Assembly (NCBI GenBank): GCA_028293645.1
Contig: JAQGOK010000058.1
Span: 1 to 38,082 of the forward strand
Source: Chthoniobacter sp.
Lineage (GTDB): Bacteria; Verrucomicrobiota; Verrucomicrobiia; Chthoniobacterales; Chthoniobacteraceae
Direction: 5' to 3'
Length of the DNA stretch: 38,082 nt
The notes below the pieces were generated by a model, which did no database searches, was not told the DNA's origin, and worked only from the letters and a program-made list of their open reading frames with translations. The position numbers and the translations under genes were made by a program. This document shows positions 13,830 to 23,601 of the stretch, in pieces; the stretch's first letter is position 1; every line of letters begins with the position of its first letter.

Positions 13830-14936
13830 ATGAGTCCCTCCGCTCTTTGTTTTCGCGCCGTTGCGGGCGCAATTCTTTACGCCCTTGCCTCCAGTTCAGT
13901 CTCTGGTCAAAGCGCAACCACCGACCCAGTCGGATTTTACACTCTTCCAGCGACGGGTGGGGCCGACAACGTTCTTTCGGTTCCTCTCCATCGGGACGCG
14001 GTTTTTGTTGGAACCATTGCTTCCTTCACAGCGAATACCCTGAGCGTGGCTGCTGGCGCTGGGTCCCCCGGCTGGACGCCCAACCAGTTCACGTATGCCG
14101 CCGGGACGCAGCCCGAGACCTATCTCGCCGAGGTCACCAGCGGGAATTTGAGGGGAACTTTTTACAAGATCACGGCGAACGGAGCGAACGCTCTCACCCT
14201 GGATACGGAGGGTGATGATCTTACCAGCCACCCACTCGGTGCTCTTCAGGCGAACGACTCCGTTCGAGTTCGGCCGTACTGGAGGATTCGGGACATCTTT
14301 GAAGCTAACGGCACCCCGCTCATTGAGGCCCGGCCCGCTGGCTTTCGTGCGAAGGATGACATCATCATTCCGAGTTTCGGAAGCGGAGCGACTCAAACGC
14401 CCGCAACAATCATCCATTTCTTCAACGGCTGGAAGGCCTCGCGGACGGTTTCAACTGATGTTCGCGATTTCCCGCTACAGCCCAACACCTCCATTATCCT
14501 GCGGCGTCGCAATCCCAATCCGTTGAACTTGGTGAACTTGGGTAATGTGGCCATGACTCGCAACGTGAGTTATGTCCCCGGCGGTGATGGCGCGACCCCC
14601 AACGCAACGTATCTGGCCCTTGCGCACGCTGCTCCCGTTACGCTCGATGCTTCCGGCCTGTATAATCCGGCCAACCCCGCTGCCAGCGTAATCAAACCTT
14701 CGACGGCCGACCAGGAGGGTCTCCGCCAAGACGAGTTGCTGGAGTTTGACAACGCGGCACCGGGTTTCAACAAGGCGCCTTCGGCGATCTACTACTACAA
14801 GGCGGGGGAGGGCTGGAAGAACACGGGTGGTGCTCTCGTCGGTGCGACGAAGCTGCTGGAACCTGGAAAAGGGTACGTGATTCGGAAGCTGGCGAGCAAT
14901 CCGGGTGTCGACTGGGTCAAAGATCCAAACTACTAA
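13830..14936 (+). CDS. secreted protein resembling the TIGR02597 family
   Basis: The 368-residue product has a signal peptide ending near SVSGQS and a long beta-rich body. It begins with TDPVGFYTL, continues with a segment about dealing with positions and offsets (TFYKITANGANALTLDTEGDDL), and ends with KGYVIRK. This layout matches the uncharacterised TIGR02597 family, known to me mainly from Verrucomicrobia, where it is paralogous and often sits beside PEP-CTERM proteins. Its function is unknown. Here the next gene starts 3 nt after its stop and does encode a PEP-CTERM protein, so the two form an operon. It lacks a PEP-CTERM tail itself. The family assignment is from memory of its features and should be confirmed with the model. 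Confidence 0.8.
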   Translation: MSPSALCFRAVAGAILYALASSSVSGQSATTDPVGFYTLPATGGADNVLSVPLHRDAVFVGTIASFTANTLSVAAGAGSPGWTPNQFTYAAGTQPETYLAEVTSGNLRGTFYKITANGANALTLDTEGDDLTSHPLGALQANDSVRVRPYWRIRDIFEANGTPLIEARPAGFRAKDDIIIPSFGSGATQTPATIIHFFNGWKASRTVSTDVRDFPLQPNTSIILRRRNPNPLNLVNLGNVAMTRNVSYVPGGDGATPNATYLALAHAAPVTLDASGLYNPANPAASVIKPSTADQEGLRQDELLEFDNAAPGFNKAPSAIYYYKAGEGWKNTGGALVGATKLLEPGKGYVIRKLASNPGVDWVKDPNY

Positions 14937-14939
14937 GCG

Positions 14940-15644
14940 ATGAAGCCTGTTTCACGCTTCCCAAGTTGGGCATGCGCGGTTGCGATTTGCGCATTCAGCG
15001 GAACGGCGGCGAAAGCTGCCATCGTGGTTGAGATTGCTGCACAAGACCTGCAGACAGAACAGCTCGGCACATTGTTCCCGACAAACGCTCTCGTCCAGTT
15101 GGTGAACCTCGGAGCTGACGGTGCATTCAACCCGATTGCGCTGGGAGATGGCGGCAGCCAGTGGGTCAGCGGGGACGATACGCTTCTGAGCTTCAACATT
15201 GGCAGTTCTGAAGGGCACACCACCGATCGGTTCGATGTGGCTGAGGGAGCGGGACAAACGGGATTCCTCCTGCGAACCTTCGACTTCTCCGCGGTACCCA
15301 CCGGGACGAGGCTCGGCATCCGGTGGTTCCCGGCAATCGCCGCCACGGCGTTCGACGCCACCGGTAGTGCGCTGATGGCGGATCAGACTCGCTACGGACA
15401 GTTTACGAGGCAGGGTGCGCCTTTGAACGCGGAAGGGGACCCTACCGTGATCCCGTGGATTGTCCCGGCTAACGTCGTCGGGGTTACGCAAGCGTTTCGC
15501 TTCGATCCCCTCGTTACTGCCACGCAAGGTGGCGCCGATCCGAATTCTGCCGGGGTGGCTGGTCAGACGGTTATTCCAGAACCTTCTTCCGCGCTTTTGC
15601 TCGCGTTTGGTGCGCTCGGTATGCTCGCAAGGCGGAGGCGATAA
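14940..15644 (+). CDS. PEP-CTERM sorting-domain protein
   Basis: The 234-residue product has a signal peptide ending near AAKAA and a beta-rich, low-charge middle. Its C-terminus is a complete PEP-CTERM signal: PEPSSA, then a short hydrophobic helix (LLLAFGALGMLA) and a terminal RRRR cluster. PEP-CTERM proteins are exported and then processed by an exosortase (EpsH/XrtA type), usually in organisms that make exopolysaccharide. No exosortase gene is in this window. The gene begins 3 nt after the TIGR02597-like gene and ends 33 nt before a strong terminator. Confidence 0.92.
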   Translation: MKPVSRFPSWACAVAICAFSGTAAKAAIVVEIAAQDLQTEQLGTLFPTNALVQLVNLGADGAFNPIALGDGGSQWVSGDDTLLSFNIGSSEGHTTDRFDVAEGAGQTGFLLRTFDFSAVPTGTRLGIRWFPAIAATAFDATGSALMADQTRYGQFTRQGAPLNAEGDPTVIPWIVPANVVGVTQAFRFDPLVTATQGGADPNSAGVAGQTVIPEPSSALLLAFGALGMLARRRR

Positions 15645-15677
15645 GCCGCCAGGCGGAACTCCCAATGATACTTCTCG

Positions 15678-15712
15678 AAGAAGGCAAGCCGTGAGGCTTG
15701 CCTTCTTTTTTT
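15678..15712 (+). terminator. intrinsic terminator after the PEP-CTERM gene
   Basis: A perfect 13-bp stem (15678-15690 with 15695-15707) closes a GTGA tetraloop and runs directly into a T tract (about 7 T within 15706-15712). This is a textbook rho-independent terminator. It lies only 16 nt before the gspF start codon. Confidence 0.93.
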
Positions 15713-15728: not shown

Positions 15729-17018
15729 ATGCCGCAATTCCGCTACACCGCACGGCAGTCTGACGGGAAGCTGGTGAATGGCGTTCTTGCCTGCACCGAT
15801 CGCTCCGCCGCAATCGTGGAGGTGGAAAAGCAAGGTGGGACTCCGATCAAAATTGAGCCGATCGCCGAGGGAGCGGGTAAGCCAGCGCTAAAACCGGAGC
15901 TGAGCAAAGCGCGGCAGAGCACGCCTCCGAGCAGCAGCGCAGCGATCTCCCCGGCTGCGGGAGCGGTCACCACGCTGGGCCACACTCAGCAGTATCTCTT
16001 CACAGAGCAGCTCGCGCATTTGCTGAGCGCCGGAATGACGCTCGATGAGGCTTTGGAGATTCTGGTTCGTCGGATGAAGCATCCCAAGCTGCAGAGTCTG
16101 TCGCAGTCGCTGCACCGCGCGTTGGTCGATGGAAGAAGCCTTTCGCAAGCGATGCGGGATTTCCCGCGGATCTTTACCCCTCTCTACGTGAACCTCGTCT
16201 CCGCTGGTGAGGCGAGCGGCGCACTGCCTGACATTCTCAAGCGGTTGGTGGCACATCTCGCGGATGTGAAATCCCTTCGCGATCGTGTGCAACAGGCGTT
16301 GATTTATCCCGCTGTCCTCGTCGTCGCCGGCATCGGCCTGATCGTCGTTTTCATGACGGTCATGGTGCCGAAGCTCACGGTTTTCTTCAAAGGCTCGGGG
16401 CAGCCTTTGCCCGCGGCGACTCGACTGCTCGTCTCGGCGAACTATGTTTTAACGCACTATTGGTGGCTTGGGATTCTCATCGGATTCGGACTCTTCAGTC
16501 TCTGGAAAGTGATGACCCGCACGCCGGAAGGCCGCCGTGCGTGGGATGCGTTCACCTGGCGCATTCCGGTCTATAGCCGGATTATCCGTTACCGCTTCTA
16601 TGCGCAGTTTGCCCGTACGTTGGGCACATTGATCGAAAATGGAGTCACGTTGCTTCGCGCTCTGGAGCTTTTGGAGGAGATCTCGGGAAATGAATACGTG
16701 AGGATCCGAATGGTCTCCGTCCGCACTGCAGTGGTGGATGGAGCGACGCTTTCCACCGCCCTCGGCGAACAAGGGATTTTTCCAGAGCTGTTTGTTGATA
16801 TGATGGCGGTAGGCGAGCAGTCCGGGCGCTTTGGCGGCACGATGCAGATGATCGCGGACGTCTATGAGCGTGAGCTCGATAAGCAAATCCAGATCGTCTC
16901 CACGTTGATCCCGCCAATGGTCATGGTCGTGATCGCGGCGGTGGTTGGGTTGGTGGTTTATGGAATCCTCAGTGCGGTTTTTGGCCTCACCTCGGGCTTG
17001 CGTGGAAATATAGGCTAG
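15729..17018 (+). CDS. gspF: type II secretion inner-membrane platform protein GspF
   Basis: The 429-residue product has two T2SSF repeats. The first (about 90-215) includes FTEQLAHLLSAGMTLDEALE and VSAGEASGALPDIL followed by a membrane span. The second (about 295-420) includes FARTLGTLIENGVTLLRALELL, VGEQSGRFG and a C-terminal span. GspF is the polytopic core of the inner-membrane platform and contacts the secretion ATPase. The N-terminal domain is followed by a Ser/Ala/Pro linker at about 50-80. The start at 15729 (ATG) matches the usual PxFxYxAxxxxG opening (MPQFRYTARQSDG); the frame extends back only to a TTG in the terminator tail. No Shine-Dalgarno sequence is visible. The related type IV pilus protein PilC is an alternative, but the neighbouring pseudopilins favour T2SS. 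Confidence 0.93.
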   Translation: MPQFRYTARQSDGKLVNGVLACTDRSAAIVEVEKQGGTPIKIEPIAEGAGKPALKPELSKARQSTPPSSSAAISPAAGAVTTLGHTQQYLFTEQLAHLLSAGMTLDEALEILVRRMKHPKLQSLSQSLHRALVDGRSLSQAMRDFPRIFTPLYVNLVSAGEASGALPDILKRLVAHLADVKSLRDRVQQALIYPAVLVVAGIGLIVVFMTVMVPKLTVFFKGSGQPLPAATRLLVSANYVLTHYWWLGILIGFGLFSLWKVMTRTPEGRRAWDAFTWRIPVYSRIIRYRFYAQFARTLGTLIENGVTLLRALELLEEISGNEYVRIRMVSVRTAVVDGATLSTALGEQGIFPELFVDMMAVGEQSGRFGGTMQMIADVYERELDKQIQIVSTLIPPMVMVVIAAVVGLVVYGILSAVFGLTSGLRGNIG

Positions 17019-17045: not shown

Positions 17046-18083
17046 ATGCGCGATTCCTTTCTCCTTTGCTCCGGGCGCAATGCTGTTGCGGCTTTGGTGC
17101 TGCTGTTGTCTTCGCCGCCTTCAACCGTTCTCGCGCAGGAACTCCGGACCCACGCGACCCCCTTTTCCGTGTGGCTGGACTTCCATGCGCTTGTTACCCC
17201 GAAGCCACCGAAGGTGGCACTCCCAATTTGGCTGGAGTCGCTCCAAACCGAGGTAACGGAGACCGACGCCGGTCTTCCGGTGAGGACGACGTATCGGCTG
17301 CGCTTCCGTCCATTAGGCGATCTCAACCGTGACCTTCTCTTGCGCCTGTTTTTCGATGATGCCCCTGGTGCGGCGCCGATGATCACGGGTTGGGCGGAAA
17401 CCGGTGAGCAGCTCTTTGAACGCGGGCCGCTCGGTGCGGGCCTTGATCTTCCCACTTCTGAAGCCTTGGTCTTGCCGATGACCGGGGTCAGTTACATCGA
17501 CGTGACTGCCGGAGGCGACGGTTCGAAGTTGCGAGGTGTCTTCCTGACCTCATTACGAAAAGGCGAATCGTTCCATTCGCTCGATTTCGCTGCGAGCCCA
17601 CCGGTCGCGGACTCGTTCGACAATCTCCCGTCGGCTGCTCCCGAGCCGAACGACTCGTTCCTCTATGGCAGAGTGAAGGCGGTCATCGATTCCGGGATCG
17701 TGAAGCTCGCACCACGGGGAACCACCACGGCGGCTTGGGAATTCGACCTCGAGGGTCCGCCATTCCTCGCGGTGCTAAGCTTTGAAATCCTAAACGCCGA
17801 CCCGCTTTCACCGGTCGAGGTGATCGTGAATGAAAAGTCGCTCGGGGTTGCCGCAGCGCGGCTGCCAGATCTGGCCGACCCTGGATACCGCGGGGTGCTT
17901 CGGCCGTTGGATCGCGGCGTCCGCTTCCGTTACGCCGGCTGGCTGCAGTCCCAAAAATCGCTTCCGGGTTCCGCACTGAGAGCGGGTTTAAACAAGATCG
18001 TTTTACGACTGCCTGTTGACTCCGGGCCGGTAGCGGTCCGAGGGTTGGGCCTCCAACTGAAAAACGAGTGGCAAGCGCCTTAA
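17046..18083 (+). CDS. secreted protein of unknown function between gspF and gspG
   Basis: The 345-residue product has an N-terminal signal peptide (hydrophobic AALVLLLSS, cleavage near LAQ) and no further membrane span. The body looks beta-rich, with a C-terminal part of strands and conserved-looking aromatic residues (RYAGWLQSQKS, LPVDSGPVAVRGLGLQL). I recognise no domain. It sits 27 nt after gspF and 14 nt before gspG in the same orientation, so co-transcription is likely. That placement suggests either a lineage-specific T2SS accessory protein or a secreted client. Genes in standard gsp operons at this point are gspG directly, so this is an insertion relative to the canonical order. Confidence 0.82.
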   Translation: MRDSFLLCSGRNAVAALVLLLSSPPSTVLAQELRTHATPFSVWLDFHALVTPKPPKVALPIWLESLQTEVTETDAGLPVRTTYRLRFRPLGDLNRDLLLRLFFDDAPGAAPMITGWAETGEQLFERGPLGAGLDLPTSEALVLPMTGVSYIDVTAGGDGSKLRGVFLTSLRKGESFHSLDFAASPPVADSFDNLPSAAPEPNDSFLYGRVKAVIDSGIVKLAPRGTTTAAWEFDLEGPPFLAVLSFEILNADPLSPVEVIVNEKSLGVAAARLPDLADPGYRGVLRPLDRGVRFRYAGWLQSQKSLPGSALRAGLNKIVLRLPVDSGPVAVRGLGLQLKNEWQAP

Positions 18084-18097
18084 CCTAGTCTCCTCCC

Positions 18098-18532
18098 ATG
18101 AAACGCCTTCTTCGCCCAACCGCCGGTTTTACTCTCTTGGAAATCATGCTTGTCGTGCTGATCATTGGTCTGCTGATCGGCATGGCGATCAAGTTCACGG
18201 CGGGCCATTTAGGGGCCGCACAGGAGGTTCGGATGAGGGGGGACATCGAGCAGCTCCGATCGCATCTGCTGGTCTATCAATCCCAAAATGGCGTTCTGCC
18301 CACTACGGAACAGGGCCTGAAAGCATTGATCACGAAGCCGGATTCTGAACCGAAAGCCCGGAACTGGAAACCTTTGCTCGAGGAGCCGCTTCTCGACCCT
18401 TTCCAGCAGGAATACTTCTATGTGCAGCCTGGGAAGCACAATCCCAGCAGCTACGACATCTTTTCTGCAGGCCCCGATCGAATTCCCGAAACCGCAGACG
18501 ACTTCGGCAACTGGAAAAAGTCCGACCCCTAG
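18098..18532 (+). CDS. gspG: major pseudopilin GspG
   Basis: The 144-residue product has a prepilin leader cut before Phe in AG^FTLLEIMLV, with the conserved Glu at mature position 5. The globular part has the GspG pattern: a region around RSHLLVYQSQNGVLPTTEQGLKAL, then DPFQQEYFYVQPG, and a C-terminal calcium-loop-like SAGPDRIPETADDFGNW. GspG is the main subunit of the T2SS pseudopilus, processed by a GspO/PilD prepilin peptidase. No peptidase gene is in this window. It is the last gene of the plus-strand block and converges with the minus-strand gsp genes, 9 nt apart. Confidence 0.96.
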   Translation: MKRLLRPTAGFTLLEIMLVVLIIGLLIGMAIKFTAGHLGAAQEVRMRGDIEQLRSHLLVYQSQNGVLPTTEQGLKALITKPDSEPKARNWKPLLEEPLLDPFQQEYFYVQPGKHNPSSYDIFSAGPDRIPETADDFGNWKKSDP

Positions 18533-18541
18533 CTGCCCCTG

Positions 18542-19258
18542 CTACTGAGCAGGCGTGAGGGGAATCGAACGGATCCGGCGCCGACCTCCACTTTCGGTGG
18601 GGACCGTTGTGCCCGTGGCTCCCGTTGCCCGTTGCGGCTGCGCGCCCGGGATCGTCACGACGGAGCTTTGAGGGGCGGCAGCCCCATTCGGGCGAACCAC
18701 TCCGGGTCGCTGCGGTTGGATCAGATTCGCGTTTGCGGGCACCTTCCCCGCCGGCATCGGAACGTTCCCAGCGCCGAGCCGTGGTGACTGGCCGTTGGCG
18801 CGTGCCGAAGGCATGGTCGGTGATGGCTGCGATCCCGGCCCTGGCGCAACAAGGTTCGCCTCGTTGAAAAGCAGCTTCGCAAACTGGCCATCTTTCACGA
18901 TCGTCACGGTGCTTTTCCCGATGTTCGGAGACCATTCAACGCTCTGCAGCTTTACTCCGGTTTCGCGATCCTCCTCAGCTCCCCAGAGCGCAAACTGTAC
19001 GGATAGGTCACGCGCCCTGACGGTCACGAAGTCTTTACCCTCAAGGCGAGAAAGACTGCTCCAGTACCATCCGTCCGCGAAGTTCCTGTCCGGCGTGACC
19101 GGTGTGACCGCCGGCGTGGCGAGTGCGAAGGGCGAGCGCTCCACCATGCTTTCATAACGCGAAGCGGGATACGGCTCCGGGATGACGGCAGCCGAAGCGG
19201 CCCGACAAACGAAAGCAGTGCCGGCCAGGATAAGGAAAGGACGCGCGTGCGTGACCAT
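18542..19258 (-). CDS. secreted protein of unknown function at the end of the gsp minus block, possibly GspC/PilP-like
   Basis: The 238-residue product has a signal peptide or N-terminal anchor, then PYPASRYESMVERSPFALATP. The latter resembles the Y..(I/M)..RSPF opening seen in GspC/PilP-like inner-membrane or periplasmic proteins. A beta-rich domain follows around residues 60-135 (FADGWYWSSL to KLLFNEANLV). The last 100 residues are Pro/Ala/Gln/Asn-rich, low complexity and positively charged near the end (GGRRRIRSIP). It is placed after the GspM-like gene (41 nt gap), the position where gspN lies in some gsp operons. A role as a connector between platform and secretin is possible but rests on weak similarity and position. 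Confidence 0.8.
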   Translation of the reverse strand: MVTHARPFLILAGTAFVCRAASAAVIPEPYPASRYESMVERSPFALATPAVTPVTPDRNFADGWYWSSLSRLEGKDFVTVRARDLSVQFALWGAEEDRETGVKLQSVEWSPNIGKSTVTIVKDGQFAKLLFNEANLVAPGPGSQPSPTMPSARANGQSPRLGAGNVPMPAGKVPANANLIQPQRPGVVRPNGAAAPQSSVVTIPGAQPQRATGATGTTVPTESGGRRRIRSIPLTPAQ

Positions 19259-19299: not shown

Positions 19300-19845
19300 T
19301 CATGGCGACTTCCTTACGGGAGCGAACCACTTGGCGACGCGGAAGTCGCCGTGCATCTGCGTGGGGTCAGCAGCGTCCACCTTGAGAGTGACACTTTCGA
19401 GAACGACGAACTTCTCCGGCCCCTGCAGCTCTCCCACAAATCCAAGGAGTCCCTTCCAGTTGCTTTTCGAACCGAAGGAAACTGACACCGAAGTGTAGGC
19501 GGGTCTATGCACGGCCGCACGCAGTGACAGAGTGTTTTTTTCGATCTCCACCGCGTGCCTGCCCGCGACTTCCTTCGTAGCTTCCATCAATTGAACCCCG
19601 GCTCCTTCTTCGCCTCCGGAGCGGGGTTGATGCGCGCCCAGCCAGGCTTCCCTCTCCTGCCACATCACGCGCTCGCTGAGCATCCGTTTCGTCGCCAGAA
19701 GCGCGCCATTATTCCGCGCCAGTTCACCTTTCAGCTGCGTCTGCTTTTTCAAAAAGTAGTCGATTACGAAGGCGTTGATAAACACGAACGCCACTCCGGC
19801 GACGATGCTCGCCAGCAGTTTCTCGCGGGTTGAAAGCGTGCTCAT
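19300..19845 (-). CDS. gspM: GspM/PilO-like inner-membrane assembly protein
   Basis: The 181-residue product has a short cytoplasmic head, one membrane span at about residues 10-32 (ASIVAGVAFVFINAFVIDYF), a Lys/Arg-rich coiled region, and a C-terminal alpha/beta domain of ferredoxin-like character (SVSVSFGSKSNWKGLLGFVGEL). This is the layout of GspM and PilO, which pair with GspL/PilN. It overlaps the GspL-like gene by 4 nt (19842-19845). The family is poorly conserved, so the name rests on topology plus operon order. Confidence 0.75.
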   Translation of the reverse strand: MSTLSTREKLLASIVAGVAFVFINAFVIDYFLKKQTQLKGELARNNGALLATKRMLSERVMWQEREAWLGAHQPRSGGEEGAGVQLMEATKEVAGRHAVEIEKNTLSLRAAVHRPAYTSVSVSFGSKSNWKGLLGFVGELQGPEKFVVLESVTLKVDAADPTQMHGDFRVAKWFAPVRKSP

Positions 19846-21059
19846 AAGCGGCCGAAGACACTGAACTTCGCATGCTCGTTGGGCAGCAGATCCGGTTCGC
19901 CCGAAGTAATCGTCCAGGCTTCCAATTCTTTCTCACCCTTCAATTTCTGGACGTACTCGATGGCTAGGATGGCGCTCGGTGCCTCACCGACGACTTTCCA
20001 TTGGGAGGGCGAGTGTTCGAACTCGGTGATCAAGACCTCGGCGGAAGGCAGATTCTTATGGATCTGATGCAGGATCTCGATCGTCGAGCGACTTGGATCA
20101 AAAGCCGGGCGAAGCTCGTTCCACCGGAGTTCGCTTTCCTGGATTGCCTTCAGCTGCGGCTGGGTGGCGGCGACCTGCATCGCGAGCTTCTGTGACTCGT
20201 TTTTCAGCCACGCGAGATACACGAAGGCGCCCGCAACGAGCAGGAGGTAAAGCACAGCGCCGAGCAGCAACCGCTGCTGCAAACGTTCGCCGCTCTTCAG
20301 GCGACGGGCATCCGCCTGCCACGCCGCGGGAACCAGATTGCCTGAAGGCTCGGGCAGCGTCACGTCCAGGGCGATCAACTGGACAGGAACCCCGAACTGC
20401 TCACGCAAGGGCTCAGTAAGCTGCGCAAAACTACGCTCCAGCTGCACACTCGCGAAGTTCGTGGGAACCCCATCGATTTCGGCCGACAGCAAGAGCTGCG
20501 GCAACTCCTCCGTCAGCGCCGCCGCGTCAATCCCGGAGAGCGTTTGCGCCCAGCTCAATTTCCCGCGCTCACAGATTGCCGCCACGAACTGGCCTTGCTC
20601 TGCGTAGATCGCCAGCACCGTTTGGTCCGCCGGGCAGACGGCCGCCACATGCATCGCAAACAGCGTGATCTTTTCCGGCAACCTTGCCTGCGCGAGCAGG
20701 GGACCGCACAGCTCATCGAGCTGCCCGCGATGCGCGGCGACGGCGAGCAGCGTTGACTCGTGTTCCGCGGATTCGATCACTTCAAAGTCGCTCGAAACTT
20801 CTTCGGTGGGATACGGCAGCGTCTTTTCAAACTGCAACGCCAGCATGCCCGCAAGTTCCTCGCGGTCAGTCGCGGGCAACTTGATCCGTTCGATCAAAGC
20901 GATCTGACACGGCAGCGCGAGCCGCACCGCCGTTTTCAAAGGCAGCGCTGCGGCGGCTTCGCCAAGGGTAGGGAAGTTCCGCGCGGCAGCGTTGCCGTGT
21001 CGGAGGCGCCAGCCCTCCGCATCAGGGCTGATCAGAGCGTCATTGGCCGAAGACTTCAT
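19842..21059 (-). CDS. gspL: GspL-like assembly protein (PilM-like/PilN-like fusion)
   Basis: The 405-residue product has an N-terminal cytoplasmic part (about 1-245) with the actin-like pattern of PilM/GspL (LKTAVRLALPCQIALIERIKLP, then LALQFEKTLPYP). One membrane span follows at about 262-285 (LLLGAVLYLLLVAGAFVYLAW), then a coiled coil and a periplasmic PilN-like domain (about 315-405). GspL links the GspE ATPase to GspF and GspM in the T2SS platform. It overlaps its neighbours by 4 nt on both sides, indicating tight translational coupling. Confidence 0.8.
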   Translation of the reverse strand: MKSSANDALISPDAEGWRLRHGNAAARNFPTLGEAAAALPLKTAVRLALPCQIALIERIKLPATDREELAGMLALQFEKTLPYPTEEVSSDFEVIESAEHESTLLAVAAHRGQLDELCGPLLAQARLPEKITLFAMHVAAVCPADQTVLAIYAEQGQFVAAICERGKLSWAQTLSGIDAAALTEELPQLLLSAEIDGVPTNFASVQLERSFAQLTEPLREQFGVPVQLIALDVTLPEPSGNLVPAAWQADARRLKSGERLQQRLLLGAVLYLLLVAGAFVYLAWLKNESQKLAMQVAATQPQLKAIQESELRWNELRPAFDPSRSTIEILHQIHKNLPSAEVLITEFEHSPSQWKVVGEAPSAILAIEYVQKLKGEKELEAWTITSGEPDLLPNEHAKFSVFGRL

Positions 21060-21970
21060 TCTTTCCAGGAGAGGATTTGGGGCTTTCGGACGACTACGTC
21101 CACCTGCTTATACACACTTCCCGAGTGACCTTCGCTGATGATGTGCAGCGTCGTGTCCTGGTGGGTGACGAGTCCGGCCCATGCCTGCTTTTGCTGTGGA
21201 TTAAATCCGAGGAAGCGCTCGACGTCCGCGAGCGACTTAAACTCGTTGTCGTCGGCGGTGCCATCGACTCCGTCGCGGCCGCGCCGGATTTGCAACAGAC
21301 GCGTGATCTGCGCTTCGCCCAGGCCCGGCACAAGGCGCAGGATCTCCGGGGTGGCCGCGGTGACGTCGATCGGCCCGAGGCTTTCCAGTGTGAGATCCTG
21401 CTCCCAGCCCGGCGTCCGCGTCAGCGCCTCAGCACCACGCACCTGAGCGATCTCTTCGATGCTCTCCAGCGGCGCGTTGCGCGGAGCGTAATCGGGCTCC
21501 GCCTCGACGCCATTCAATCGGTGCGCGTCACCATCGTCATCGACCCAATCGAGCAGGCAGTCCGCGAGAATCTCCCGTTCCTCGAAGTTCAGCCCACGCT
21601 GCTCGAGCCACTGTTTCAAGATTGTCAGCCGGCGCGGGTCGTCGCCCTGCTCGAGCAGCCAGCGCATGTTCAAGCGCCCGCCTTCGCTAATGATGCGCAC
21701 CTTGTAACCAAGCGCGCCGCTGAAGCTTTCTTCCAGCCCCGGCGTTCGTTGGCTGACCTTTGGGTGCCGCGCGATGGCAATGCCCGAATACGCCATGGCG
21801 CGCGCTTCGATCTCGCGGTTCGCCTGCCCGTGCAGAACGATGTCCTGCTGCACCCATTTCGCAAATGCGAACACTGCGGCCGAAAGCATCAACAACGCCC
21901 AAAGCACCAGCAGCAACGCGGAGCCGGCGCGGCGTTTTCCTGAGCCCAAAGGCATCGGATCGGTGATCAT
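21056..21970 (-). CDS. gspK: minor pseudopilin GspK
   Basis: The 304-residue product has a short basic leader and a hydrophobic segment, RRAGSALLLVLWALLML, with no Glu at mature position 5, as is typical for GspK. The large helical body contains LDWVDDDGDAHRLNGVEAE and the helix-hairpin-helix-like segment around LRLVPGLGEAQITRLLQIRRG, both usual in GspK. GspK caps the pseudopilus tip together with GspI and GspJ. The start overlaps the gspJ stop by 4 nt (21967-21970). Confidence 0.93.
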   Translation of the reverse strand: MITDPMPLGSGKRRAGSALLLVLWALLMLSAAVFAFAKWVQQDIVLHGQANREIEARAMAYSGIAIARHPKVSQRTPGLEESFSGALGYKVRIISEGGRLNMRWLLEQGDDPRRLTILKQWLEQRGLNFEEREILADCLLDWVDDDGDAHRLNGVEAEPDYAPRNAPLESIEEIAQVRGAEALTRTPGWEQDLTLESLGPIDVTAATPEILRLVPGLGEAQITRLLQIRRGRDGVDGTADDNEFKSLADVERFLGFNPQQKQAWAGLVTHQDTTLHIISEGHSGSVYKQVDVVVRKPQILSWKE

Positions 21971-22641
21971 CGGATGTTCGCGGAAGGGACCGGGAGGATG
22001 GCGTCATACGGGACGTCGTCCGCAGTTTTCCAGATCTTCACGTGCACGAAGCTCGGCCGTTGCGCCGGGTTCGTCCACTGCTGCAATTCCGTCTTCAGGC
22101 CGGGATCCCAATAACGAATCTCCATGGCCGCCACCGACGCAATCAACGGCAGCCAGTTGTAGCGCGTGGTGCCGCTTCCTTTTGAAAAGAAGTCCGCGTC
22201 CGATTTTTCTTCGGAGCTGACGAGCTCCCGACGCAGCCCGAGTTCCGTTACTGCCTTGTCATTTTCCGAAGGCTGCAACGCCAGCGTCACGCGATACTCG
22301 CCCGGCGCGGCGCCGGTCAGCACACCCTGACCGGCGCGGCAGAGCCAGGTCATTTCATCGCTCTGCAGATCGCGGAATTTATACGCTTTCCCGAGCAGCA
22401 GATTGCTGCCCTTCACCGGCAGATCGTTGAGCTGCGTTTGGATCAGCTTCGTGACGGCTTCGATTTCCTGCCGCTGCGAGGTGATCTCGGTCATCGCGTT
22501 GATCGCGGTCAGTGTCGTCGAGATGAAGCGGTAGAGCACCATCATCAGCAGCGCGATCACGAACGTCGCAGTCATCACCTCCAGCAACGTGAAGCCAGCC
22601 CGTCGCCGTCGCGGCGCGTCAGTTTTGCCGGCGATACACAT
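21967..22641 (-). CDS. gspJ: minor pseudopilin GspJ
   Basis: The 224-residue product has a 16-residue basic leader ending RRRRAG before FTLLEVM, with Glu at mature position 5, then a hydrophobic helix and a beta-rich C-terminal domain (EYRVTLALQPSE, MEIRYWDPGLKTELQQW). GspJ is part of the pseudopilus tip complex with GspI and GspK. The start at 22641 overlaps the gspI end by 23 nt, which fits the compact gsp order H-I-J-K. Confidence 0.92.
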   Translation of the reverse strand: MCIAGKTDAPRRRRAGFTLLEVMTATFVIALLMMVLYRFISTTLTAINAMTEITSQRQEIEAVTKLIQTQLNDLPVKGSNLLLGKAYKFRDLQSDEMTWLCRAGQGVLTGAAPGEYRVTLALQPSENDKAVTELGLRRELVSSEEKSDADFFSKGSGTTRYNWLPLIASVAAMEIRYWDPGLKTELQQWTNPAQRPSFVHVKIWKTADDVPYDAILPVPSANIR

Positions 22642-23032
22642 AGAAGTTCAGGTCTCGCGATTGATCCGTCCCTTCGCTTTTCCAGGAGACCTGGAGCGTC
22701 ACCGCCTCGATGCCGAGGACATCCTCATTCTTCTCGTTCTTCATTTGGAAGGGCGTGCGCTTTTGTTTCAGCTTCATCCCCTCAAAGGCGCCGCGCAGGA
22801 CCTCTTCGCGATCATTGCCGAGTGCAACCGCTTCCGCCTGGATCTCCGCCATGCGATTGGAGAGTGCCAGCCGCGCGCGCACGTCCTCCTGCTTCATCCG
22901 CACCGCGACGATGCAATTGTTCACGCATTGCCCGAGCGCGATGACCCCGATCGAGAAGATGCCCACCGCGAGCATTGCTTCCAGGAGCCAGAAGCCTGCT
23001 TCGCGAATATGCCGCCGCGCCAGCCGTTTCAT
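22619..23032 (-). CDS. gspI: minor pseudopilin GspI
   Basis: The 137-residue product has a basic leader (MKRLARRHIREAG) and an unusual N-helix start, FWLLEAMLAVGIF, that keeps Glu5 but has Trp where Thr is common. The body contains MAEIQAEAVALG and ends in LNFYVYRRQN. The frame is open for 300 codons back to 23518, but the pseudopilin begins at the ATG ending at 23032, which overlaps the gspH stop by 4 nt (23029-23032). Confidence 0.9.
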   Translation of the reverse strand: MKRLARRHIREAGFWLLEAMLAVGIFSIGVIALGQCVNNCIVAVRMKQEDVRARLALSNRMAEIQAEAVALGNDREEVLRGAFEGMKLKQKRTPFQMKNEKNEDVLGIEAVTLQVSWKSEGTDQSRDLNFYVYRRQN

Positions 23033-23502
23033 TTTACCTCCATGGCGATGAAGCGTCCCTGAGCCGTCAGCCCGCTGTATTCGACTGACCAGGTGCCGGC
23101 TGAGCCGCGGTAATGCACAACCACAGGCTCGCAAGTGCCGCTGCGCCAGAACGGCCATTCCCAGACCGGCTTCTTCACCAACGCTGCCGGCCGGTCGAGC
23201 GCCCATTCCGCGCCCTCTTCGAACGAGAAACGCGTCTTTTCCGGCTCGGACTCGTCGCGTGTTGTATCGGCGACGCGGAGATCGATGCCGGTCTCGTCCC
23301 AGACCATGGCGTAGGTACGGCGCTCGGTGACGGATCGGGTTTGCGCCTGGCGCACGAAATCGTCGAAATCCTCGAACGAGCGCTTCAGCTTTTGCTCCCG
23401 CAGCATCCCCGAGACGCTCGGTATCGCGATGGTGATCAGCAGCAGCCCGATGCACAGCGCGAGGAGAATCTCGAGCAGCGTGAAGCCGTGGGAGCGCGAC
23501 AT
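23029..23502 (-). CDS. gspH: minor pseudopilin GspH-like
   Basis: The 157-residue product begins MSRSHG^FTLLEILLALC, a standard prepilin signal with Glu5. It has a helix (REQKLKRSFEDFDDFVRQAQTRSV) and a beta-rich C-terminal region. Its length and position first in the H-I-J-K order suit GspH. The frame is open upstream to 23562, but the start at 23502 gives a short leader as in other pseudopilins. It lies 99 nt downstream of the DUF4424-like gene and may be transcribed with it. Confidence 0.87.
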   Translation of the reverse strand: MSRSHGFTLLEILLALCIGLLLITIAIPSVSGMLREQKLKRSFEDFDDFVRQAQTRSVTERRTYAMVWDETGIDLRVADTTRDESEPEKTRFSFEEGAEWALDRPAALVKKPVWEWPFWRSGTCEPVVVHYRGSAGTWSVEYSGLTAQGRFIAMEVK

Positions 23503-23601
23503 GCCCGGAAAATACCACGCGTTGCCACGACTGCGAAGCGAGCAGTTCGAGGGCAAAAACACGGCACTTGGACCGCTCGCGGAGCCAGCCGTTCAGGCAA
23601 G

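Follow-up and report, generated by a model that had tools for sequence, protein, structure and literature searches.

What is the product of a gene that stands between gspF and gspG in a type II secretion system (T2SS) locus: a part of the secretion machine, a protein that the machine exports, or neither? This question is raised by a 38,082-nucleotide contig of Chthoniobacter sp. (JAQGOK010000058.1), the whole of which is called the window here. We refer to the gene and its product as X. To our knowledge, work on T2SS mechanism rests almost wholly on Proteobacteria. Verrucomicrobiota are a major polymer-degrading phylum, and a conserved extra gene in their core operon suggests a T2SS subtype with a part of its own. 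In the literature within our coverage, which leaves out most subscription journals, we found no report of verrucomicrobial gspF and gspG with a further T2SS gene between them.

Position of X in the T2SS locus

X is an open reading frame (ORF) of 345 codons with an ATG start at 17046-18083 (+). It starts 27 nt after the end of gspF (17018) and ends 14 nt before the start of gspG (18098), which confirms the size and spacing given in the initial annotation. gspF (15729-17018 (+), ATG at 15729) encodes the inner-membrane platform protein and matched PF00482 (3.5e-54). gspG (18098-18532 (+)) encodes the major pseudopilin and matched PF08334 (8.5e-22) and N_methyl.

On the minus strand, three pseudopilin genes were named by operon order. 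These are the gspH-like ORF (23029-23562, assigned to G/H by our own profiles), the gspI-like gene (22619-23032, own profile, start codon estimated by hand) and the gspJ-like gene (21967-22641, own profile, 1e-46). They are followed by gspK (21056-21970 (-)), identified with PF21687 (1.5e-09), and by a gspL-like gene (19842-21059 (-)) found with our own profile; its PilM_2 match of 0.00014 was below the cut-off. The gspM-like gene (19300-19845 (-)) had no Pfam match and was recognized by our own profile and by position, from which it takes its name. The gspC-like gene (18542-19258 (-)), also without a Pfam match, was recognized from a structure model with an HR domain at residues of about 58-133.

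A terminator-like hairpin with a 14-pair stem and a T tail was found by pattern match at 15677-15708 (+), between a PEP-CTERM gene and gspF. Six terminator-like sites were found in the region against 4.5 expected, and the stem at 15677-15708 was by far the longest. Since this hairpin parts the upstream PEP-CTERM gene from gspF, F-X-G is probably a short transcription unit of its own. X had been described as tightly placed in a core T2SS transcript. It does lie within a T2SS unit, but not within a single long one: F-X-G on the plus strand converges on H-I-J-K-L-M-C on the minus strand, so X belongs to the short one of two T2SS transcription units.

X is a conserved gene with a signal peptide

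Near relatives carry intact homologues of X at 43-58% identity, so X is more than a chance ORF. By sequence search (E <= 0.01), X was found in 67 of 97 related genomes, with open frames in nearly all; within its own family, 34 of 40 genomes had it. In comparisons with five relatives, pN was 0.27-0.36 and pS was 0.67-0.72, with dS near saturation. These values show that X is under purifying selection.

The signal peptide claimed earlier is borne out by the N-terminus as read by eye, which runs from a basic to a hydrophobic stretch and then to LAQE, a signal-peptidase-I type. No lipobox, prepilin N-terminus or transmembrane anchor after the signal peptide was seen in the X sequence, and its sole cysteine sits in the signal sequence.

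Predicted fold of X

X of the window matched no family in Pfam or NCBIfam. To build an X alignment and profile, we used 56 members, namely the window protein and 55 of the 60 loci L031-L090; L050 and L082 (fragments), L076 and L089 (near-copies) and L083 were left out. At E <= 0.1, neither Pfam nor NCBIfam placed any of the 56 members in a Gsp family. A PDB sequence search with X returned a chance-level match alone (E 0.27).

The AlphaFold2 model of X (m5ee7814595a1, 56 sequences) had a pLDDT of 92.0 and a pTM of 0.86. It consists of two tandem jelly rolls, domain 1 at about 38-194 and domain 2 at about 200-343, and ends with a strand at 329-339 followed by a short tail. The earlier statement that X has no recognised domain therefore stands for sequence but not for structure. 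In the model, both jelly rolls are of the galactose-binding or carbohydrate-binding-module (CBM) type. Domain 2 had its best VIA match in BcsB, to the first of its jelly rolls (9fmt_D, Z 10.8, rmsd 2.6, 110 aligned, 18% identity), followed by CBM-type domains at Z 8-10. Domain 1 matched Ape1 (8gkd_A, Z 9.4) and the jelly rolls of Cry proteins. The VIA matches shown were jelly rolls, with no HR domain among them. We based the fold calls on single-domain VIA rows. The Foldseek rows had rmsd of 15-25 and low TM-scores, because both domains were aligned together. As predicted from a model, these Z values speak for fold and not for function.

Domain 2 is slightly more conserved than domain 1, with means of 1.96 and 1.75 bits per column, respectively. 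N262, G298, W299, G314 and N316 are invariant in the alignment; P274, L276, D278 and P279 are nearly so.

The closest known proteins of similar fold differ from X. BcsB, the periplasmic subunit of cellulose synthase, resembles domain 2 at the level of fold only, with no sequence match. Besides its jelly rolls, BcsB contains other domains and is anchored in the membrane at its C-terminus, whereas X consists of two jelly rolls only and has no such anchor. No bcsA was present among the window ORFs read. CBM6, CBM15, CBM29 and the CBMs of GH86, GH98 and XynJ, with Ape1 for domain 1, share the jelly-roll fold with X at Z 7.5-10.6. Unlike these, X of the window has no significant sequence family and no catalytic domain, and its sugar binding is putative.

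Jelly rolls of this kind occur most often in secreted enzymes that act on glycans, and such enzymes are ordinary clients of T2SS. X could thus be a dedicated client, a CBM-like protein that this T2SS carries out to act outside the cell or on its surface, with its gene kept in the operon for co-expression. The signal peptide without a membrane anchor, the confident globular model and the likeness of the tandem jelly rolls to CBM and glycan-enzyme domains agree with this. So do weak matches to Pfam PF14683 ‘CBM-like’ in 3 of the 56 members (best E 0.0017), none of which was the window protein. However, the strongest conserved residues, the five invariant ones, look structural. We consider a client, the main rival explanation, possible but on the doubtful side.

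The lack of any Pfam or NCBIfam match would also be expected of a divergent canonical subunit (GspC, GspN, a pilotin or a minor pseudopilin) missed by sequence searches, and pilotins are hard to recognise. Against this, X has no prepilin N-terminus, lipobox or transmembrane anchor, its fold is two jelly rolls, and the pseudopilin slots G to K are all filled by other genes. GspC is likewise accounted for. In the model of the gspC-like protein (m4d7a5a9f327c), the core (58-133) had a pLDDT of about 95. Its six best VIA rows were all HR domains of GspC or PilP, including 3oss_C (Z 7.4, rmsd 2.7, 65 aligned) and 6hcg_e (Z 6.6), and the next rows were at 3.9. The GspC alignment used 53 of 100 sequences, and Foldseek alone returned nothing for this model at E <= 0.001. 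As the HR fold is carried by this separate gene, X is most likely not a hidden GspC. We regard a divergent canonical subunit as very improbable.

Distribution of X and its neighbours

In a search with the 56-member profile, X was found in 62 of 236 genomes of the class, in one copy each. These 62 include 33 of the 40 genomes drawn from the order of the window. Outside the class, the phylum was sampled with 288 genomes; matches came from only five, and almost all of these were to domain 2 alone and in other proteins. In one locus of another class (L266:5736-8246 (-)), an ORF of 837 aa is made of two X-like units in tandem. It adjoins a short ORF that resembles a small sulfur-carrier protein by eye, and no T2SS genes lie beside it.

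We examined 160 X loci and dropped 22 near-duplicates, leaving 138 distinct loci. GspG was the next T2SS gene 3′ of X in 128 of the 131 distinct loci with at least 700 nt of room; L047, L125 and L126 were the exceptions. GspF was directly 5′ of X in 80 of the 116 loci with at least 1500 nt of room. Of the F-X-G order proposed for checking, the X-G part is thus kept across the class, in nearly all loci with enough room, and F stands upstream in a majority. In five families of the window's order, X heads the run X-G-H-I-J-K-L-M-C. In another order, L129 has the operon E-F-X-G-H-I-J-K-L-M-C, followed by an ORF with a Secretin_N match (D). Compared with the canonical Gsp operon, L129 likewise has E, F, G, H, I, J, K, L, M, C and D. 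X is the sole non-canonical gene; the other eleven are accounted for, and X has no counterpart in the T2SS families of Pfam or NCBIfam. In naming the L129 genes, we used Pfam for E, F, G, K and Secretin_N, and our own profiles with gene order for the remainder. The gspC-like gene was identified through the HR fold of the window's copy.

This arrangement bears on the client explanation. A single copy in each of the 62 X-positive genomes is unusual for a client, and so is a gene locked to gspG over many families, including in a complete operon from E to D.

The X of genus g14 lies apart from the G-H-I-J-K-L run but is retained in the genome (L047, L125 and L250 versus L249, L251 and L252). Chthoniobacter flavus Ellin428 (L055; G491:C43:97157) carries X beside T2SS genes. 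In this genome the T2SS genes are split: L-M-C and G-X-F share a contig with a GspK match that lies about 26 kb away.

X marks one type of T2SS

GspK was detected with PF21687 in 168 of the 236 class genomes, compared with 62 for X. PF21687 GspK was present in 55 of the 62 X-positive genomes. T2SS genes were examined in four of the remaining seven (G093, G247 and G287 were left out). In three X loci of these genomes (L066, L123 and L127), GspK was found with our own profiles, and in G005, GspG stands beside X. Within the order, the 2x2 table of X against GspK was 29, 4, 1 and 6 (Fisher p 3e-4, kinship ignored).

The GspK tree had 125 rows. X was linked to GspK or present in the same genome in 94 rows, seven of which were scored as having X elsewhere in the genome, and 31 rows were without X. 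The X label changed 3 times on this tree, compared with a mean of 28 after shuffling. X marks one GspK clade, that is, one T2SS subtype, and it may have a single origin on this tree. The window's own genome has two further GspK-bearing T2SS of other types without X, L247 (G000:C81) and L248 (G000:C123). In X-less T2SS loci, F was followed directly by G or H wherever F was in the stretch read. ORFs 5′ of G in loci without F were not X-like by eye. We therefore rejected a divergent X hidden in the X-less T2SS loci of the class that we read.

In a comparison of X with T2SS genes that included no housekeeping control, the distances of X tracked those of I, J, K, L and M (r 0.91-0.94, 81 loci), and these five genes correlated with one another to the same degree. 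With G, the correlation of X was only r 0.77 (81 loci). The highest partial correlation, 0.56, was between the known partners L and M, and the highest for X was 0.31, with L. Vertical descent alone could produce this co-divergence.

These data can be set against a third explanation, in which X acts in the envelope but not in secretion, perhaps by binding glycan or peptidoglycan, and owes its place in the operon to history. It would fit the unlinked X of g14, the double unit away from T2SS genes in another class and the existence of X-less T2SS. On the other hand, X and GspK co-occur within the order, and no X-positive genome was shown to be without a T2SS; the four examined among the seven lacking PF21687 do have T2SS genes. 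We judge an unrelated envelope job improbable.

Loss of X

Six of the 40 genomes of the window's own family lack X. Two of these, G011 and G013, retain adjacent orthologues of F and G, 59-61% (F) and 52-54% (G) identical to those of the window; the remaining four have no orthologous F and G. A second profile search of seven X-less genomes found none, and in G011 and G013 neither sequence nor profile search found X anywhere in the genome. The T2SS of G011 has D- and E-like ORFs (by eye), H-I-J-K-L-M and C. That of G013 has, within the stretch read, E- and D-like ORFs (by eye) and H to L. On the GspF tree, G011 and G013 are nested among X-positive genomes and apart from one another, and G013 belongs to the same genus group as four X-positive genomes.

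X has thus been lost at least twice in its own family. In G011 and G013, which lost it separately on the GspF tree, F and G are still there with all or most of the T2SS; X is therefore dispensable, an accessory and not a core component. Nor is X in every T2SS of its type: the F-G pairs of these two genomes lack it, as do 31 other rows of the GspK tree. At the outset, presence that varies among close relatives had been named as evidence against a T2SS component or client. What we found is in between: most relatives in the family have X, but these two keep F-G without it. Loss of X from a retained T2SS also agrees with a client.

The GspF branch of G013 (L282), which follows the loss of X, is 0.58 long compared with 0.14 in its sister, about four times longer. 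This perhaps reflects altered constraint on GspF.

Proposed role of X

The initial annotation had suggested a lineage-specific component or a dedicated client. In favour, X-G is kept in nearly all loci and X follows one T2SS clade; against it, X varies among close relatives. We see about an even chance that one verrucomicrobial T2SS subtype has in X a periplasmic accessory (an adaptor or scaffold) that is conserved in the lineage but dispensable. The helper role is favoured because the position of X is locked to the T2SS core in many families, X is single-copy and it is kept even when unlinked, as in g14. A dedicated client stays alive as an explanation because X is dispensable and its fold is typical of secreted glycan-active proteins.

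As a helper, X would be exported by Sec, its signal peptide would be cleaved, and the soluble protein would stay with the T2SS in the periplasm. The more conserved domain 2, with its P-D-L-x-D-P loop and G-W strand, may dock either on some part of the machine within the periplasm or on a glycan located there. Candidate docking parts are the pseudopilus, the GspL/M/C platform and the secretin entrance. Domain 1 could help to recruit or orient cargo, or it could steady the machine against the cell wall, in much the same way as GspB/OutB, an unrelated scaffold. The likeness of X to GspB/OutB is one of proposed role, a lineage-restricted periplasmic T2SS accessory. GspB is a protein with an HR domain and an anchor in the inner membrane (PMC9239104), whereas neither feature was seen in X.

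A more specific proposal is that X is a periplasmic subunit, so far undescribed, whose presence sets a T2SS subtype of Verrucomicrobiota apart. Its BcsB-like double jelly roll would form a collar or docking platform between the pseudopilus or GspL-M-C and the secretin. There it would load glycan-active enzymes or hold the machine on the cell wall, and it would be lost where the cargo changes. We think this rather unlikely to be correct. Put simply, X is an extra gene in the T2SS locus of many soil and freshwater Verrucomicrobiota, since lost by some relatives, and its product is probably a helper. As G011 and G013 are near relatives that serve as natural X-less controls, the choice between accessory and client is directly testable.

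Genes upstream of gspF

Directly 5′ of gspF in the window lie a gene for a TIGR02597-family protein (13830-14936 (+), 4.5e-55) and then a gene for a PEP-CTERM protein (14940-15644 (+)). We rejected X as a partner of the PEP-CTERM/exosortase system. None of the 12 genomes of genus g5 has an exosortase and 11 of them keep X, so X is independent of this system; the X-less G011 and G013, moreover, do have exosortase.

TIGR02597 was found upstream of gspF in eight distinct loci of the window's own family (the window, L052, L053, L056, L057, L058, L060 and L148), and all eight also hold a PEP-CTERM-like ORF. That such surface-protein genes do adjoin this T2SS in the family is a further point for X as a client. 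The TIGR02597 and PEP-CTERM proteins are themselves candidate T2SS clients or surface proteins. A similar TIGR02597/PEP-CTERM pair precedes gspG in L233, an X-less T2SS of another order.
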